Positions 1-8,823 of a stretch of DNA of 64,000 nucleotides are shown here, one piece after another; position 1 is the stretch's first letter; every line of letters begins with the position of its first letter. A model generated the notes under the pieces. It did not search any database. It was not told the origin of the DNA and worked only from the letters and a program-made list of their open reading frames with translations. The position numbers and the translations under genes were made by a program. Origin of the DNA: Acidimicrobiaceae bacterium (GTDB taxonomy: Bacteria; Actinomycetota; Acidimicrobiia; Acidimicrobiales; RAAP-2); NCBI GenBank assembly GCA_947455165.1, contig CANGMP010000002.1, positions 1-64,000 on the forward strand, read 5' to 3'.

Positions 1-1946
1 CGGTAGGCGGCGAGGACTGGGTCAGTGGCGTCAAAGGCGTACAGCTTGACCGAACCGTCGTAGGCGTCAATGACAACCTTGACCGAGTTGCGAACGTAGT
101 TGTAGTTGCCCGTGAGGCTGCCCGTCGGTGCACCATCTTGAGAGTTGGCCCCTTCGCTGTAGGGGTAAAGGCTCGAGGTGGTGTAACCGTCGAGAACGAA
201 GTTCACGCGTCCATTCGCCAACACGGCGTAGGGTGCGCTGTCAAAGGTAAGGAACGGTGCAGCCTTCTTCGCCATGTTGAGTACGTCGCGCTCAAAGAGC
301 ATCCGACTCTTGGTCGTGATCTGATTCGAAATCCAGAGATTCAAATCTTGGAATCGCAGAGCAAAGGCACTGCGACGCAAGAAACTGCTCATCTCGACGC
401 CACCAGTACCGGCGTAGTTCGAGGCCACGGGCGTTCCGGCCTGCGTCTTGTAGTCAAGTTCCTTTTGCTTGGTGTTGGCCACTACCCAGCCCGGGTCGTC
501 GATACCGAAGTAGACCCCGGGAGTCGTAAGGAGCGGTGTGCCGTTCGACGACGTCGGCGGCACGTTCTGGACCGCAAAGGTCGGGTTGCCGGTCGCCGAG
601 TCAAAAGTGTTGGCCGGCGAGACCACCATGCCGTAACCGTGGGTGTATTCGAGGTGCTGGTTGACCCAACTGCGAGCCGGAAGGTTGTTCTGGTTGAGCT
701 GGCGGGCGCCCACAAGCACCGGCGTCACTTTGCCGTCGAGGACGTAGCGGTCGACAGCGAGCGACGTGAAGGTGTAGTACGACTGGATGGCCTGGCGGCG
801 CTGCACCGTCTCGAGGGCAATGTTTGGCGACGGGTCCCAGAGGCGAACGTTATTGAGCGTGGCGGCGCTGGACTGCAAATCAGCCGGAGTGATTGACGTG
901 GCTCCGGCGAAGCTTTCGCGCTGAACCGTATCGATGCCGTAGGCCGCACGCGTGGCTTCGATATTGCGCTTGATGTAGGCAGACTCGAGCGAGACCTCGG
1001 CCGGCTTGACCTTGAACGTCTGAATGACCTTGGGGTAGATGACGCCAATGGTGAGTGAAACAAAGACCCACAACACGGCGGCCAGCACGGGCAGCGACCA
1101 ACCCTGACGCAGGACGTTGCCGAGCAGAAGCGCGGCAACGGCCAACGAGATCCAGAACATGATCGTCAATGCGGGCATCCGGGCGTGGATGTCGGCGTAC
1201 GTGGCACCCTGGACGTATCCGTTGGACTGCGTGACGAGCGTGTAGCGAGCGAGCAAGTAGTCAATGGCCTTAAAGATTGCGACCGAGGCCAGCAGGACAC
1301 TGAGGTGAATCTTCACTTGCGGGCTAACGCGAGGAGATACGCGCGCGGCCCGAATCCCACCGTTGAGGTAGTGAAAGAACGTCGTGATGAGTGTGATCAC
1401 CACCATGGACATCAGGGCCCACGTCACCACGAAGTGCAGAAAACTCAATCGGAAAATGTAGAAGCCAATGTTCTTATGAAAGACCGGGTCGACGCCGGGG
1501 AAGCTTTGGGCATGAGCAAAGAGGATGTAGTTCTGCCACTGAGGAACGGCGCTCAAACCGGCAACGAGCCCAACGACCAATGCCACGAGCGCGTAGAGAC
1601 GGCGGGCGAAGGGACGAATGAGCGTTTGAAACCAACGAACGAGTTCGTCCTCGGGCTCAAAGGTCAGATCGCGGGAGGCAAACCGCGTGGCGAGCAACAA
1701 GTTGCCCCAGAGCACCACGAAGAACGACGCCCCAAACACAACGGCGAGCCCCACTTTGACCGTAAGGAGACCAGTGAAGACGGAGCCCTGGCTGATTGAG
1801 TCGAACCAGAGCGAGTCGGTCCACAGCACGGCGACACTTCGCAGTGAGGTCAGCAGGATGAAGAGAACGGCAATGATGAGCACCGTTATCCCGCGACGGC
1901 GGGTAATGGGACTCTTGAAGGAAGCTAAATCATCAGGGCTACGCAC
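1..1946 (-). CDS. UPF0182 family large membrane protein (3' end outside window)
   Basis: Open minus-strand frame running off the window edge, so absent from the ORF track. My translation gives [29 protein letters not shown]... with several TM segments, then [42 protein letters not shown] and [34 protein letters not shown], typical of UPF0182/COG1615. GTG start proposed at 1946. Confidence 0.9.
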   Translation of the reverse strand, partial: [648 protein letters not shown]

Positions 1947-1965: not shown

Positions 1966-3693
1966 CTACGCCGGAACGACCGCGCAGCTACAACCAGCGT
2001 GCAGCGGCGGGTGAGGCTGGCCGCTGGGGAAGTTTTGGCCGGCCGGGTGAATACCCGAGTTGGCGTCCAACGTGCAGGCGTCACAAGGGGTATCGCTGGG
2101 CGAAACGAGGACTCGCACGTTGCCACCGGTGCAGGCGTTCACGACACCGACATTGAAGGCTCGGCGAGCAATATCGCCACAGAGGCGCTCGACTCGGGCG
2201 CCTCGCCACTCTTTGTAGGCGGCATTGGCCCGCTCGGCACCGTCGTCGCTGCCGTCGGCCTGAACGCGCTTGCGCAGCGCCAGCGCCAGCGTGATGGCCA
2301 AGTCGGTGGCACATTCGTCGACTGCACTCGTTGCGTTCAGCGATCCTTCGGTGCCGGTGATCTGGTTGGAAAACGCCACACCAGCTTGCGCGGCTGCGCG
2401 AATCGTTTCTAGGGACGCGGCGACGTAGCGGCTGCGCTGGTCGGCCTCATCTTCCATCTGATCGGTGATTTGACCCTTGAGTCCGCGAAGACGATCAATC
2501 ATGACGTTCTGATCGTCCTGGAGGGCACGCTTGACGTGGCGAACGAGTTCGCTGAGGTGGGGCGCCAGCGACTCTTCACGACGAAGGAAGACTTCGTCGT
2601 CGGGCGTCACGGGCGTCGTACGTTCCTTCGGCGCCCGCTTCGGCGCGGCCGGTTCGCGGCCCTTCTCCTCTTGCGTAGAGGCGCGAATGCGAGCGAATAT
2701 TTCCCCGACCACGTCACTGGCGGGAGCAGCGTCGCCGGGTCCTTCTGACGCTTCGGGAGCGGTGGCAGTTACTTCGGTTGAAGCGGTCGCCTTACGTGGC
2801 TTGACGGCCGTGGGGTCAACGGCAGGTAGCCGCAAGGGTGCTGACGATTCGGTTGACGCCAAGTCGTCGGGGGTCACGGTGGCCGGTTCGGGGACGACCC
2901 GAAGGGGCACGCCGCGCAGCAACTCTTCTTCCGTCGGCTCGGGCGAGGTTGGGCGGGAGCGCAGTGCCTCAATCGCCGCCGCTCGAGCACCTTCGTCTGA
3001 ACTCATCAGACCACCAAGGACTTGGTCGACCGATTCGCGCACCGAACTAACGGAGGCCGTGAGGACGTCACGAGCTGCGCGCAACTGTTCGATCTGTACG
3101 TTGAGCGCTTTGCGCTTGATCATGAGATCGTTCAGGACGGCGCGACGCGCCTCGTTGGCCTGCTCGATGATGGCCCGACCCTGTTCGCGGGCCCGCTCAA
3201 TCAGCGCCTCTCCGTTGATGCGAGCCGAGTCTTCGAGGCGCTGCGCGGCGGCGCGAGCCTCCTCGTCCTTGTGCTGAGACTGGACCTCGGCGTCGTTGAC
3301 AATTGCCAAAGCACGTGCTTGCGCTTCGACGATGTAGTTCGTCGCACGCTCTTGGGCCTGCGTGAAGATCTGAGTAGCGCGCTCCTGGCCTTCCGCAGTT
3401 ACGCGACCAGCTTCATCATGCGCGGCCCGCAAGATAGCGGCCGACTGTGCGCCGAGGGCAGCCGCGAGCTGCGATTCGTCCAGCACGGGATTATCGGCAC
3501 GGTGGAGTGCATCTGAAAGCTTGGCCTGCATGTCCTGCAGTCGCTTTTCCATGAGCGCAATTTCGCGGCCCACGCCGTCGAGGTAACTCCGTACTTCTTC
3601 GGGGTCAAAACCTTTGCGAACCGTCCGAAAGCTGGCGTTGGTGACGTCAGCGCCCGAGTGGCGATTCGGGGACAGTATTCGGCGGTCGTCCAT
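1966..3693 (-). CDS. DivIVA-domain coiled-coil protein with C-terminal Mu F/minor-capsid-like Cys/His domain
   Basis: N-term DVTNASFRTVRKGFDPEEVRSYLDGVGREIALMEKRLQDMQ (DivIVA-like), long Ala/Glu/Arg coiled coil, C-term RAFNVGVVNACTGGNVRVLVSPSDTPCDACTLDANSGIHPAGQNFPSGQPHPPLHAGCSCAVVPA. Confidence 0.8.
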   Translation of the reverse strand: MDDRRILSPNRHSGADVTNASFRTVRKGFDPEEVRSYLDGVGREIALMEKRLQDMQAKLSDALHRADNPVLDESQLAAALGAQSAAILRAAHDEAGRVTAEGQERATQIFTQAQERATNYIVEAQARALAIVNDAEVQSQHKDEEARAAAQRLEDSARINGEALIERAREQGRAIIEQANEARRAVLNDLMIKRKALNVQIEQLRAARDVLTASVSSVRESVDQVLGGLMSSDEGARAAAIEALRSRPTSPEPTEEELLRGVPLRVVPEPATVTPDDLASTESSAPLRLPAVDPTAVKPRKATASTEVTATAPEASEGPGDAAPASDVVGEIFARIRASTQEEKGREPAAPKRAPKERTTPVTPDDEVFLRREESLAPHLSELVRHVKRALQDDQNVMIDRLRGLKGQITDQMEDEADQRSRYVAASLETIRAAAQAGVAFSNQITGTEGSLNATSAVDECATDLAITLALALRKRVQADGSDDGAERANAAYKEWRGARVERLCGDIARRAFNVGVVNACTGGNVRVLVSPSDTPCDACTLDANSGIHPAGQNFPSGQPHPPLHAGCSCAVVPA

Positions 3694-3720: not shown

Positions 3721-4842
3721 CTAAAAATTTGGTTTCGTATAGGGCACGGGGGGCTGGCCACCTAGACGACGAAGTTCGCGGAGCACCTGCGCGAGCTTCG
3801 TGGCACCAATGACCGCCAACTTGCCATGGGCCGCCGCTCGTGCTTGGTAAGCCTGATTAGCGGGGACGATGAAAATCGCTGCCCCGGCCGTTATCGCCGC
3901 CGCCGTCTTTTGCTCAATGCCACCAATATCGCCGACAGTTCCATTCGTCGCAATTTCGCCAGTAACGGCAACCTTCTTGCCGCCCGACAGGCTGCCCTCA
4001 CTCAGGCGATCAATGAGCGCCAACGTCATAGCCAGACCGGCCGACGGCCCGCCGATGTACTGAGTATTGATAGTGATGGTCGCGGGAAAGTTGTACGAGA
4101 CTCCGTCACTCAGCGAAACGCCGATCCACGACTTGGCAATCGTCGTGATACCGGGGCAGTCCGAAACCGCAACGTCTCGTGGCGTCTTTTTTGTACTGAT
4201 CTTGAGCATCGTGGGTTCGGCGTACGTGATGACTCCGGCGTCGCTCACCTTGGCCTTCTCAATACCCACCTGCACGGTGCTCGCTGGGGCCACGTCGTGC
4301 AGGGCCGCAATGGCGTCACAGGAGTTGGCGATTGGCGAACCATTGATACTCACGATGCGATCGGCAATACGTAGACCGGCCTTGCGGGCGGCACTGCCTA
4401 CGGTGAAGTCAGTCGTGACCGCACCAGTGGGCTGGGGCGTTAGTGACCACCCGAGGGCGCGGAATGCATTCAGCTCAGCGTTGTCTTTCGAGTTCTGCAT
4501 GTCGAGATAGCTCTGGCGGTCAAAGTCGGCGAAGGAACTGCCCTTGGAAACCAGATCGCTCAGTAGCACGGTGTTTGTAGCGCCCCGGACTTGAGCCCAG
4601 AACTGTGAGAGGGCCGTCATCTGTCGCAGGGCCACGTCGACCATCATGAAACCGGACTTCTTCGTGGTGGCCTGCGGGTCGGTCGGAACACCGCTCACCT
4701 TGATCATGGGACTCAAGGGCGATGCCTGGCCCGGAAGAATTTCGTACGTCGAGACGTGCACTCGGTTCAGACCAAACAGCATGAGTGCGATGACCGTGAT
4801 CACGATGACGAGCCGACGACGTACTACTGGCAATGACTTCAA
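3721..4842 (-). CDS. PDZ domain + Lon-type S16 serine protease domain protein (YlbL family)
   Basis: N-terminal TM, PDZ (AARKAGLRIADRIVSINGSPI), S16 Ser motif GGPSAGLAMTLALIDRLSEG and Lys motif GGIEQKTAAAI. Confidence 0.88.
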   Translation of the reverse strand: MKSLPVVRRRLVIVITVIALMLFGLNRVHVSTYEILPGQASPLSPMIKVSGVPTDPQATTKKSGFMMVDVALRQMTALSQFWAQVRGATNTVLLSDLVSKGSSFADFDRQSYLDMQNSKDNAELNAFRALGWSLTPQPTGAVTTDFTVGSAARKAGLRIADRIVSINGSPIANSCDAIAALHDVAPASTVQVGIEKAKVSDAGVITYAEPTMLKISTKKTPRDVAVSDCPGITTIAKSWIGVSLSDGVSYNFPATITINTQYIGGPSAGLAMTLALIDRLSEGSLSGGKKVAVTGEIATNGTVGDIGGIEQKTAAAITAGAAIFIVPANQAYQARAAAHGKLAVIGATKLAQVLRELRRLGGQPPVPYTKPNF

Positions 4843-4880
4843 AACCGCACTCCCGTGACAACGCAGGTGAGAATAGAGCT

Positions 4881-5513
4881 ATGGAGCTCAACGACGCCAC
4901 GCTACCCGAGGACGTGGTGCAGTCACTTGTCCGCGCCGCCTTCTCTCAGGACGAGGCCGACACGAGCCTGCTCACAAGCGCCCTGACATCCCTCGCGCCT
5001 CGGGCCCGCGTCTTGGCCCTGCGCGGTCTGGCTCGTCAGCGACGCCTCACCGACGAACACCTGGGACGGGCACTCAGCGACGATGCTGACGAAGTCGTTC
5101 ACGAAGCGCTGGCCCTGTTGGCCCGCGAGAGCGAACTCGGCCAGGGCCTCACCGGACAACTACTGGAACTCCTGGGCCATGCCAATCCCCTCGTCGTCGA
5201 GGCGGCAATCTTCGCCGCCGGTGAGCGGGAACTGGCCGAAGCCCTCGAGCCCCTGATTGACCTGGTTCTCACGCACGACGACGCCCGCTGTCGTGAATCG
5301 GGCGTCGTTGCGCTCGGTCAACTGGCTGTCGACGAAGCGAAGCCGGCGATTCTCTCGGCCATGAAGGACAAGCCCACTGTTCGCCGTCGAGCCGTCGTGG
5401 CATTGGCCTCGTTTGAGGGTGACGACATTGAGGCGGCGCTCGACGAGGCCAGTGAGGATCGGGACTGGCAGGTCCGCTCGGCCGTCGAGCAACTCCGCCG
5501 GGACGAGGACTAG
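4881..5513 (+). CDS. HEAT-repeat domain protein
   Basis: Alpha-helical HEAT/PBS-lyase-type repeats (ALRGLARQRRLTDEHLGRALSDDADEVVHEALALLARE...). ATG at 4881 preferred over the ORF start at 4833. Confidence 0.75.
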   Translation: MELNDATLPEDVVQSLVRAAFSQDEADTSLLTSALTSLAPRARVLALRGLARQRRLTDEHLGRALSDDADEVVHEALALLARESELGQGLTGQLLELLGHANPLVVEAAIFAAGERELAEALEPLIDLVLTHDDARCRESGVVALGQLAVDEAKPAILSAMKDKPTVRRRAVVALASFEGDDIEAALDEASEDRDWQVRSAVEQLRRDED

Positions 5514-6514
5514 GCGTCCACTTTTCGCAGTGCGCGATGGAGTGAACCCATGTCGTTCAAGCAGCGAACCAGGCCCCGAATGACGGCCAGTTCGGGTTGA
5601 TCAACCACGTGGCACGACACCCCGACTTCGCGGGCCAACAGATCAGCGAAGTCTTCGAGCCGGGCCAGTCCCCCGACGAGACTGAGACCGCGAACTGAAA
5701 CGTCGTGGGCCAGGTCTGGCGGGGCCTCACCGAGACACTCCTTCACGCTGCGCACAATGGCCCGAATGTTGTCGTTCACGGCGGCCTCGATGATGTCACC
5801 GGGGACCTCCACGTTGACCGGTAGTCCACGGTCGACGGTGCGGGCTGGCACCACTCGTACTTCACGACGACGAGAACCAAGCGGCGAAGCGAGTTCCATC
5901 TTGAGCGACTCGGCCACGTGCGGGGCGACGACAACGCCGTAGCGGTGGCGCAGCGCGACCGCAATTGCATCGTCGAGATGGGTGCCGCCAATGCGAACTG
6001 AACGCGACGTGACGATGCCGCCGAGCGACATGATGGCCGTCTCGCTGGCTCCGCCACCCACCATCACAATTGGCGCAGCCACGGGCTCTTCCACGCTCAG
6101 TCCGGCGCCGATGGCGGCGGCAATTGGTGTCTCAATGAGCGTCGCTTCGGTGGCCCCGGCCTGCAGGGCCGCTTGGCGGAGGGCACGGCGCTCAATCGAG
6201 GTCGCGAGGGCCGGCACACTCATCGTGGCGTGAATACGTGAGAACCGTCCAAATCCAGCCCGGTCGAACATGGCTCGCAGCAGTCGAGCCGCTACGTCAA
6301 AGTCAACGGTGGTTCCATTGGCTAGTGGACGAAAGTTCACCACGTGTCGCGGGTCACGGGCGACGGTGCGCCACGCACCGTTACCGACGTCAACGATGTC
6401 CCCGGTGTGTGTATCGACGGCAACCACGCTGGTTTCGGAGAGAAAAACCGAGCCGTCGGCCGTGGCGAGGCGAGTCGCCGAAGTTCCTACGTCGAGTGCT
6501 ACGTGCAAGGCCAC
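5510..6514 (-). CDS. Divergent MreB/actin-like ATPase family protein
   Basis: LDVGTSATRLA, IETPIAAAIGAGL, VMVGGGASETAIMSLGGIVTSRSVRIGGTHLDDAI, SLVGGLARLEDFADLLAREVGV align with MreB-type motifs. Confidence 0.85.
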   Translation of the reverse strand: MALHVALDVGTSATRLATADGSVFLSETSVVAVDTHTGDIVDVGNGAWRTVARDPRHVVNFRPLANGTTVDFDVAARLLRAMFDRAGFGRFSRIHATMSVPALATSIERRALRQAALQAGATEATLIETPIAAAIGAGLSVEEPVAAPIVMVGGGASETAIMSLGGIVTSRSVRIGGTHLDDAIAVALRHRYGVVVAPHVAESLKMELASPLGSRRREVRVVPARTVDRGLPVNVEVPGDIIEAAVNDNIRAIVRSVKECLGEAPPDLAHDVSVRGLSLVGGLARLEDFADLLAREVGVSCHVVDQPELAVIRGLVRCLNDMGSLHRALRKVDA

Positions 6515-6570: not shown

Positions 6571-7677
6571 GTGGACAACGAAGTCTCACCACCGACTGGT
6601 GGAGGCCGCCGACGGCGGATCTTGCGACGGCGCGGTGTCGTGCCTTCCGTCGAGGGACGAACGTACCTACACCCATCTGAGCTGCCGGGTGACTTTGAAC
6701 TGCTGCTCACCACGGCAGTCGAGCATCGACCTCGTCGCTTTAGCGCCTCGATCATGGCCGTTGCGGTGTTGCTCCTCGGGGCCGGTTCGGCCACGCTGAT
6801 CGCCACCAACACTAAAGAACCTACGACCGAGGCACTTCCGGCCCACGTAGCGCGGTCACTCTTGTCAGTACCGAGTGTGGGCCGCAGTGCAGCCAACTCA
6901 CTCATCCAACTTTCCGTAAATGACCACGGCCACATCACGGCCACGGGGGCCATCATCGTCGGTGACGGTCACGTCGCCGTCACCACGCTTGCCATCAGCA
7001 AGTCGGCCAGCATCACCGGCTCAACCTGTGAAAAGCCGCGGGTGGCCGCCACGTGGCTCGGTCGTGACAGTCACGTCGGACTGACCTATGTGCACGTCAG
7101 AGAGACGCTCTCGACCACATCGGTGGCCCCCCAACCAGCCACCGAACCGGTCTTGGTGATCTCGCCCTACTTCAACGATCACGCACGCACCCCGCGCTTC
7201 GCCTACGCCAACACGGTCTTGAGCGATCCTCGATTCACGACCAACGACGGCATCGTTAGCTACCTCTCAGCCACGTCGCCCAGCTCACTCCACGGCATTA
7301 CCGGGGCCGTGGCGATTAATGATGGCGGCGACGTCGTCGCGATGCTGTCGAGTACTGGGCAGTGGTTCACGGCGTCGTACTTGACCGAAGTCGCGACCGC
7401 CTGGCTCCAGTCACCCAACTGTCACGGACGACTCGGTATCTCTGGCGTGAGCGCTGAAGGCGGGGGCGTCCTCGTCACGGCCGTGGCAAGAGGTCCGAGC
7501 TCGGGCGTACTGCGAGCTGGCGACGTGCTTTCCGAAATCAACGGTCAACATATCGATAGCTTTGACGCCCTGACGACCCTGCTCTACGCGACGCCTGGTC
7601 ATAGCCACGTTCGGGTCACGTTTCTCCGGCACCAGGTCACCCACGTTGCCGTTGTGAAGCTGGGCTGCCTCTCCTAA
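6571..7677 (+). CDS. Membrane-anchored trypsin-like/PDZ protein (HtrA-like, probably non-catalytic)
   Basis: One N-terminal TM segment, HtrA-like domain, C-terminal PDZ (GRLGISGVSAEGGGVLVTAVARGPSSGVLRAGDVLSEINGQHIDSFDALTTLL). GTG start at 6571 proposed; the upstream part of the ORF overlaps the opposite gene. Confidence 0.75.
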   Translation: MDNEVSPPTGGGRRRRILRRRGVVPSVEGRTYLHPSELPGDFELLLTTAVEHRPRRFSASIMAVAVLLLGAGSATLIATNTKEPTTEALPAHVARSLLSVPSVGRSAANSLIQLSVNDHGHITATGAIIVGDGHVAVTTLAISKSASITGSTCEKPRVAATWLGRDSHVGLTYVHVRETLSTTSVAPQPATEPVLVISPYFNDHARTPRFAYANTVLSDPRFTTNDGIVSYLSATSPSSLHGITGAVAINDGGDVVAMLSSTGQWFTASYLTEVATAWLQSPNCHGRLGISGVSAEGGGVLVTAVARGPSSGVLRAGDVLSEINGQHIDSFDALTTLLYATPGHSHVRVTFLRHQVTHVAVVKLGCLS

Positions 7678-7686
7678 GTTGCACGT

Positions 7687-8823
7687 ATGAGTGATTCCCC
7701 CTTCGGCAACTTCGGTTTCATGGGCGACTTGATGAAGATGCTCGGCCAGCAGGGTCCCGACTCGTGGTTCGAAACGGCTCGAGCGCTCGCGTCCACCATT
7801 GCTCGGGGCGACGATGCTGATCCCAACCCCCTGCCCCAGGAACGTCAGCGGCTCGAGCAGTACAGCGAACTGGTGGCTCGCCACATCGAGATGGTGCTCG
7901 GCATTCCCCAGTCTCAGCCCATCGAAGCGGCCACGCGCACGCTGCTCACCAACGCTGCCCTCGATGATTGGCGCCCCCTCCTCGAACCCTCAAAGGCCAG
8001 TCAGGCCACACCGGCTGCAGAGACTGAAGGCCTCGGCGATGCCATGGCGCCCCTCCTCGGCCAACTCAGCACCGTGATGGGTCCGCTCTTTCTGGGTTTC
8101 CAACTCGGCTCGGCAGCTGGCCACTTCTCCGAGACAGCCTGGTCTCGGGCCGCCTTGGCCCTGCCCCGTCTCGATTCGCGTCGACTGATCGTCGTTAACA
8201 ACGTGGCCCACTTCGCGCAAGAGTGGTCGCTTGATCACGACCACGCGACGATCTACGCCCTCGCACAAGAGATGACGGCCGCCACGTTCCTGACTCACGA
8301 CGGCACGACGACCGCGTTGCAGGCCCTGCTCTTTGATGCCGTCCGAGATGCTCAGGCCGCCCAGGGCGACATCATGAATCGCCTGACCGGCCTGATGCAG
8401 GGTGGCGACATCAGCGAAATGATGAGCAACCCCGAACGGTTACTCGAGGGAATCGAACTCGGCGAAGAGACTCCAGCGACGGCGGCCATCGACGCCGCCA
8501 CGGCGGCGCTACGAGCTGCGATTGACGCCCTAGCCGCGCACGTCACCCGCGCCATGGTCGGGCCCACTCCCCTGCTCGATGAAGCGCTGCGTCGCCACCG
8601 TCGAACTGACGCGCGAGGCGAAGACGGGGCGGCCGCCCTCTTTGGAATATCACTGCGAGGCGAGCGTGTCGACGAAGCCGAGCGATTTGTTCAGGCCGTT
8701 ATTGATCAGTTTGGAATTGAAGAACTCACGAGGATGTTCCAACTTGACGGCCTTCCGAGCGTCAGTGAACTCGGTACACCAGAATTGTGGGTGACTCGCG
8801 TTCGCAATTCACCGTTCGCCTAA
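7687..8823 (+). CDS. Zincin_2/DUF2342-like putative hydrolase family protein
   Basis: FGFMGDLMKMLGQQGP... and LGQLSTVMGPLFLGFQLGSAAGHFSETAWSRAALALPRLDSRRLIVVNNVAHFAQEWSLD resemble the actinobacterial family formerly called coenzyme F420 biosynthesis-associated. Confidence 0.7.
   Translation: MSDSPFGNFGFMGDLMKMLGQQGPDSWFETARALASTIARGDDADPNPLPQERQRLEQYSELVARHIEMVLGIPQSQPIEAATRTLLTNAALDDWRPLLEPSKASQATPAAETEGLGDAMAPLLGQLSTVMGPLFLGFQLGSAAGHFSETAWSRAALALPRLDSRRLIVVNNVAHFAQEWSLDHDHATIYALAQEMTAATFLTHDGTTTALQALLFDAVRDAQAAQGDIMNRLTGLMQGGDISEMMSNPERLLEGIELGEETPATAAIDAATAALRAAIDALAAHVTRAMVGPTPLLDEALRRHRRTDARGEDGAAALFGISLRGERVDEAERFVQAVIDQFGIEELTRMFQLDGLPSVSELGTPELWVTRVRNSPFA

Follow-up and report, generated by a model that had tools for sequence, protein, structure and literature searches.

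A second DivIVA-family protein with a phage MuF/portal-like C-terminal domain at a conserved MreB-YlbL-UPF0182 locus of Acidimicrobiia

Introduction

In a survey published in 2017, the MuF domain and Mu gpF were both described as lacking a known function, and almost all chromosomal MuF proteins were found in prophages or prophage remnants (PMC5576092). The best-studied member of the family, SPP1 gp7, binds the portal, is dispensable for assembly, and aids infection (PMC5576092, PMC6316719). Two cellular families also concern us here: YlbL, which in Bacillus is a membrane protease of DNA-damage checkpoint recovery (PMC6051672), and UPF0182, which Pfam still lists as uncharacterised. In the literature searched (titles, abstracts, and passages, with subscription papers mostly outside it), no description of a DivIVA-MuF fusion was found, which is weak evidence of novelty; a motif study of DivIVA proteins mentioned acidimicrobial members, and the word "phage" was absent from it. 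Here, we describe such a fusion from a 64,000-nucleotide stretch of an Acidimicrobiaceae bacterium genome (the window; assembly GCA_947455165.1, contig CANGMP010000002.1), in which a DivIVA N-terminal domain and a phage-like C-terminal domain are parts of one product.

Architecture of the DivIVA-MuF protein

The minus-strand reading frame at 1966-3693 (575 codons) is a real gene. A preliminary description had placed it at exactly these coordinates, and the C-terminal string quoted there was recovered in the translation. The window's own genome carries one copy, relatives across the genus share 47-81% identity, and 60 of 61 genomes (the window's own plus 60 relatives) contained a match. The gene and the parts of its product are as follows.

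1966..3693, minus strand: DivIVA-MuF fusion gene, 575 aa (reading frame and homologue matches)
3493..3654, minus strand: DivIVA N-terminal domain, residues 14-67, motif FRTVRKGFDPEEVRSYL (PF05103 and TIGR03544)
2962..3477, minus strand: coiled coil, residues 73-244 (single continuous helix in the model)
2605..2961, minus strand: low-complexity linker, mostly disordered, residues 245-363 (pLDDT)
2665..2715, minus strand: short conserved linker motif DVVGEIFARIRASTQEE, residues 327-343 (conservation and modelled helix 328-343)
1969..2604, minus strand: MuF/portal C-terminal-like domain, residues 364-575 (profile and fold matches)
1984..2085, minus strand: Cys/His tail CxxC...FPSGxxxPPLHxxCxC, residues 537-570 (sequence and alignment column counts)

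The full-length AlphaFold model, built from a 16-sequence alignment, consisted of N-terminal helices within residues 14-67 (14-26 and 31-67, with low confidence over residues 1-28), a long helix spanning 73-244, a low-confidence linker (pLDDT below 50 at 246-256, 259-326, and 343-361), and a folded C-terminal domain from residue 364. The earlier figure of about 400 residues for coiled coil plus linker is reached only if the C-terminal helices are counted, as the coiled coil itself covers only about 170 residues (73-244) and the linker approximately 246-363. Similarly, the Cys/His tail that had been singled out as the phage-like module is present, but it closes a larger domain of about 210 residues (364-575) that includes a preceding helical bundle.

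The DivIVA-type N-terminus proposed at the outset was upheld by both family profiles, each above its cut-off in the window protein: PF05103 (E 5.6e-8; residues 15-131; 33.3 bits against a cut-off of 28) and TIGR03544 (residues 14-44; 26.5 bits against 22). Ten divergent homologues, including four from outside the class, were scanned as well, and DivIVA exceeded the cut-off in every one. A Wag31 profile matched residues 79-206 weakly, and the score against the Wag31 equivalog (NF050102) was far below the 260-bit cut-off, at 28.7. The canonical DivIVA is a separate 257-aa protein, encoded next to FtsZ and SepF in the dcw cluster. The candidate assignment of the window protein as the canonical Wag31/DivIVA orthologue was rejected on this equivalog score and because the dcw position is taken by that other gene. 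Since the canonical DivIVA is encoded separately in the dcw cluster, the DivIVA-MuF protein would be free to serve a different client.

Among genus-level homologues, most of the linker was poorly conserved, unlike the C-terminal domain, and the motif DVVGEIFARIRASTQEE was kept. A pattern search found an LFARLR-like motif in 18/38 distant homologues, and the motif might serve as a docking site. It is also visible by eye in some homologues that lack the phage tail.

Identity of the C-terminal domain

When the window protein was searched alone, PF04233 (Phage_Mu_F) gave no match, NCBIfam gave none to its C-terminus, and the PHROG collection returned the portal family PHROG_2662 at an E value of about 0.001. 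The genus of the window carries a derived form of the domain; other families of the order show a textbook tail (e.g., CPDCDDNALAG...FPTGQVHPPAHPGCRC). An alignment of 21 C-terminal domains from such homologues (A1) was compared with the profiles. PHROG_2662, annotated as "portal protein," matched all 21 members (best E, 1.7e-14), and the next commonest named PHROG families were minor head, head morphogenesis, and head maturation protease proteins. PF04233 matched 13 of the 21, the best at 3e-5 and still below the Pfam gathering cut-off of 29.6 bits; searches of genomes with PF04233 recovered the C-termini of these proteins, in many cases across almost all 112 profile positions, homologues scored up to 28 bits over most of the profile, and no member of the DivIVA-MuF family examined reached the cut-off. 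In a related genome, an 832-aa frame (L094; G052:C61:56072-56422) exceeded the Phage_Mu_F cut-off and is possibly a true prophage MuF protein.

Profile-to-profile comparison pointed in the same direction. A comparison alignment was assembled from phage proteins together with PF04233 matches found in other genomes, and hhalign aligned A1 with it at 96.2% probability (E 2.4e-9, as a single comparison) over 123 columns, in a run that left out three phage sequences found directly by the query domain and retained three found via one of the excluded sequences. Most of the 123 columns are helices that precede the tail. For controls, 20 column-shuffled versions and one reversed version were compared along with six unrelated families of neighbouring genes, and none exceeded 1.3%. 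A tblastn search of a phage collection gave only weak matches (E 0.2 to 3), all function-named ones being portal, MuF-like, or capsid maturation proteins. A hand-written consensus of the tail retrieved short portal and MuF/capsid matches from the phage collection, along with some hypothetical proteins (best E, 2e-4), and no match from a plasmid collection.

The predicted fold was also consistent with these results. Modelled alone, the C-terminal domain reached a mean pLDDT of 90.5 in AlphaFold and gave 36 viral structural matches in BFVD at E ≤1e-3 (E 1e-6 to 1e-3; TM up to 0.75). Those with informative names were head morphogenesis, capsid morphogenesis/maturation, minor capsid, and portal proteins; two further matches took their names from a toxin domain (zeta toxin and CDI toxin-like), which is consistent with the existence of MuF toxins. 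Sequence and fold searches of solved structures with the domain returned nothing relevant (best fold match, E 0.17).

Taken together, these sequence comparisons and models establish, in our assessment, the homology of the domain with phage MuF/portal C-termini. The assignment to a Mu gpF/SPP1 gp7-type C-terminus in the preliminary description is supported: PF04233 did not match the window protein alone, and significant Mu F-type matches emerged once the family was considered (PF04233 in 13/21, PHROG in 21/21 with a best E of 1.7e-14, hhalign at 96% with E 2.4e-9, and the fold matches). An unrelated zinc or redox site could have converged on a Cys/His knuckle resembling MuF, given that the tail is short and that no Pfam match falls there in the window protein alone. 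We consider such convergence very improbable, as the hhalign alignment lies mostly in helices before the tail, the controls did not reproduce it, and the model retrieved viral head and portal proteins. A transfer from phage to cell is the likely direction of this relationship.

The C-terminal domain was strongly conserved, with NAAYKEWRGAR and the Cys/His tail near-invariant at the genus level. The set C537, C540, H565, C568, and C570 (C-C-H-C-C) was intact in 36/36 of the close homologues and 28/38 of the distant ones. Among the distant homologues, the final CxC was universal except where the tail is missing, the His was nearly universal, and the second Cys of the CxxC was replaced by Ala in three. 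As judged from this sequence pattern, the five residues form a plausible but unproven metal-binding set.

DivIVA proteins help position chromosome origins in other bacteria. A nucleoid or chromosome tether, in which the MuF domain would keep an SPP1 gp7-like DNA-binding activity and anchor DNA at the pole or septum, is compatible with that role and with the title of Stiege 2003 (cited in PMC5576092 and PMC6316719), which calls gp7 a DNA-binding protein targeted by the portal to the procapsid. The domain is acidic here (pI of about 5.7; 22 K+R vs 26 D+E) and the locus holds no recognised chromosome-segregation gene, both of which make a tether unlikely.

Locus, distribution, and inheritance

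The gene lies among cell-shape and envelope genes, arranged in the window as follows.

3..1922, minus strand: UPF0182 membrane protein, downstream neighbour (PF03699, E 1e-196); start approximate, runs off the window
3721..4842, minus strand: YlbL-type PDZ-Lon protease, upstream neighbour (PF05362, E 4.7e-11; PDZ_2, E 3.4e-7)
4833..5513, plus strand: HEAT-repeat protein, conserved opposite-strand neighbour (PF13646, E 6.3e-16; synteny)
5510..6514, minus strand: MreB, conserved neighbour (PF06723, E 2.9e-80; synteny)

The two flanking genes had been correctly named beforehand as UPF0182 and a YlbL-type protease. The order MreB-HEAT (opposite strand)-YlbL-[DivIVA-MuF]-UPF0182 was largely kept across about 70 loci, with some members displaced or lost. 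Neither a prophage nor portal or terminase genes were found beside the gene, and its neighbours in these ~70 loci are cell-shape and envelope genes. MreB was present in 233/247 genomes, with or without the DivIVA-MuF gene; because it occurs regardless of that gene, its co-occurrence is uninformative and lends no support to a connection. Three further observations concern the surroundings. The MreB gene at 5510-6514 is missing from the initial account of the neighbours. MreB was matched twice in most genomes of the order, with one match at the DivIVA-MuF locus. A PDZ-domain protein (6811-7677) is encoded in the window between MreB and a metallopeptidase of the Zincin_2 type (7687-8823), and in close relatives it often occurs in the vicinity of the locus.

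With A1 as the query and a match threshold of E ≤0.01, 170 of the 247 genomes of the class were matched, nearly always in single copy. Across the phylum, 50/298 genomes were matched, nearly always once per genome, with some of the weakest matches falling in long unrelated frames and probably due to chance; strong matches outside the class occurred in four families (f100, f103, f105, and f124). The gene was intact and conserved across dozens of families. Pairwise distances of the MuF half correlated with those of UPF0182 (rho 0.57) and YlbL (rho 0.38), and UPF0182 and YlbL correlated with each other at 0.51. The phage-like half thus tracks its neighbours in the pattern of a vertically inherited gene.

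At five gene-less sites (L178, L179, L180, L181, and L182), YlbL and UPF0182 abut, with a gap of 3 to 50 bases and nothing between them, so that both halves are missing together; at two other gene-less loci (L177 and L183), UPF0182 was not found within the stretch read. Three loci (L074, L081, and L086) retained the DivIVA half and had a shortened or absent Cys/His tail or had lost the whole C-terminal domain. Given that the gene is missing in several families and the phage tail is lost in others, the protein is not universally required. Separate genes for the two halves, which the preliminary description had named as evidence against a fusion, were found in no relative. An apparently split gene in G012 was rejected as a candidate because both pieces end at contig ends.

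An origin as a remnant prophage, or as a phage gene that acquired DivIVA, would agree with the survey in which prophages and their remnants accounted for 96% of chromosomal muf genes (PMC5576092). The fusion has the same cellular neighbours in ~70 loci, the gene is intact across dozens of families, and its absences elsewhere are clean single-gene absences, which together leave this origin with almost no probability. Our data were consistent with the initial view that a chance remnant is less likely, given the breadth of the fusion in the class, its nearly constant single copy, and its largely kept neighbourhood; the fusion is not a remnant.

Its relation to virus particles might alternatively be antagonistic. 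A MuF head that mimics a portal or minor capsid part could act as a decoy and poison virion assembly at the membrane, a reading that draws on the homology of the domain with phage portal and minor head proteins and on the inhibition of virion assembly as a known principle of defence (PMC10884400). Stable core synteny in the class and outside it, vertical inheritance, and strong conservation contrast with the patchy distribution and fast evolution of defence genes; the neighbours are cell-envelope genes, and the only PADLOC match was weak, irrelevant, and in the coiled coil. A defensive role is hence quite improbable, less likely than a DNA tether.

Discussion

Our data indicated that a DivIVA N-terminus, a coiled coil, a linker motif, and a MuF-fold domain are joined in a single gene within a cell-shape and envelope locus and, as far as sequence comparison can tell, are inherited as one unit. 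We propose, with a probability of roughly 0.5, that the protein is a second, non-dcw DivIVA-family envelope scaffold, shared by Acidimicrobiales and their relatives, in which a domesticated phage MuF/portal domain serves as a docking or oligomerisation head. Sequence evidence documents the architecture and its conservation, and the function is what we infer from them. The DivIVA end would bind curved membrane from the cytoplasmic side, at the poles or the septum, a location that we only infer, and the coiled coil would multimerise the scaffold into a lattice. The linker would then present the MuF domain as a globular head for docking or oligomerisation, and a metal on the C-C-H-C-C residues would probably stabilise it. 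Together with the linker motif, this head may recruit or position a client in envelope growth, for which the proteins encoded at this locus are the most plausible candidates; the gene neighbourhood denotes linkage and not physical interaction. The checkpoint role of YlbL in Bacillus makes a division-linked role for the locus reasonable rather than demonstrated.

By analogy with gp7 on the portal ring, the MuF head could even have kept its phage assembly behaviour and dock on a ring-shaped or multimeric membrane partner, organising a YlbL/UPF0182/MreB complex, for envelope growth or of the checkpoint-protease type, at poles or septa. We regard this more specific version as unlikely.

The envelope scaffold that we favour would mean that a phage head/portal domain has been adopted by bacteria as a conserved component of a scaffold protein, usually in single copy, in most of a class. 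As the fusion is conserved beside cell-shape genes across most of that class, a virus part appears to have turned into ordinary cell machinery. MuF domains are widespread in tailed phages, and with a stably inherited cellular version the question of what the domain binds can be asked outside phages. The second DivIVA-family protein and the conserved MreB-YlbL-UPF0182 locus are also candidates for components of one pathway.

Compared with known systems, the protein resembles the phage MuF minor head proteins (PF04233; Mu gpF, SPP1 gp7, and Arthrobacter phage Edmundo gp17) in the profile and predicted fold of its C-terminal domain, and shares with them a series of helices followed by a Cys/His tail ending in HxxCxC. 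Unlike those proteins, it carries the domain behind DivIVA, lies in a core cell-shape locus with no adjoining portal or terminase gene, and misses the Pfam cut-off. The closest phage profile is PHROG_2662, a portal family with a MuF-like C-terminus whose C-terminal 100-120 positions match, and the portal of Brevundimonas phage Strzyga shares the tail form NAxAG...FPSGH..P.HP.CRC; in contrast to these portals, the host protein has no portal body and carries DivIVA and a coiled coil instead. The MuF polymorphic toxins of temperate phages (PMC5576092) likewise use MuF as a module within a larger protein, although their MuF domain is N-terminal and accompanied by a toxin domain, whereas here it is C-terminal, with neither a toxin domain nor a prophage. 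With the DivIVA/Wag31 family, the protein has in common an N-terminal domain that scores above the cut-off and is followed by a long coiled coil; it differs in lying outside the dcw cluster and in carrying two further parts, a disordered linker and a MuF-like domain of 210 residues.
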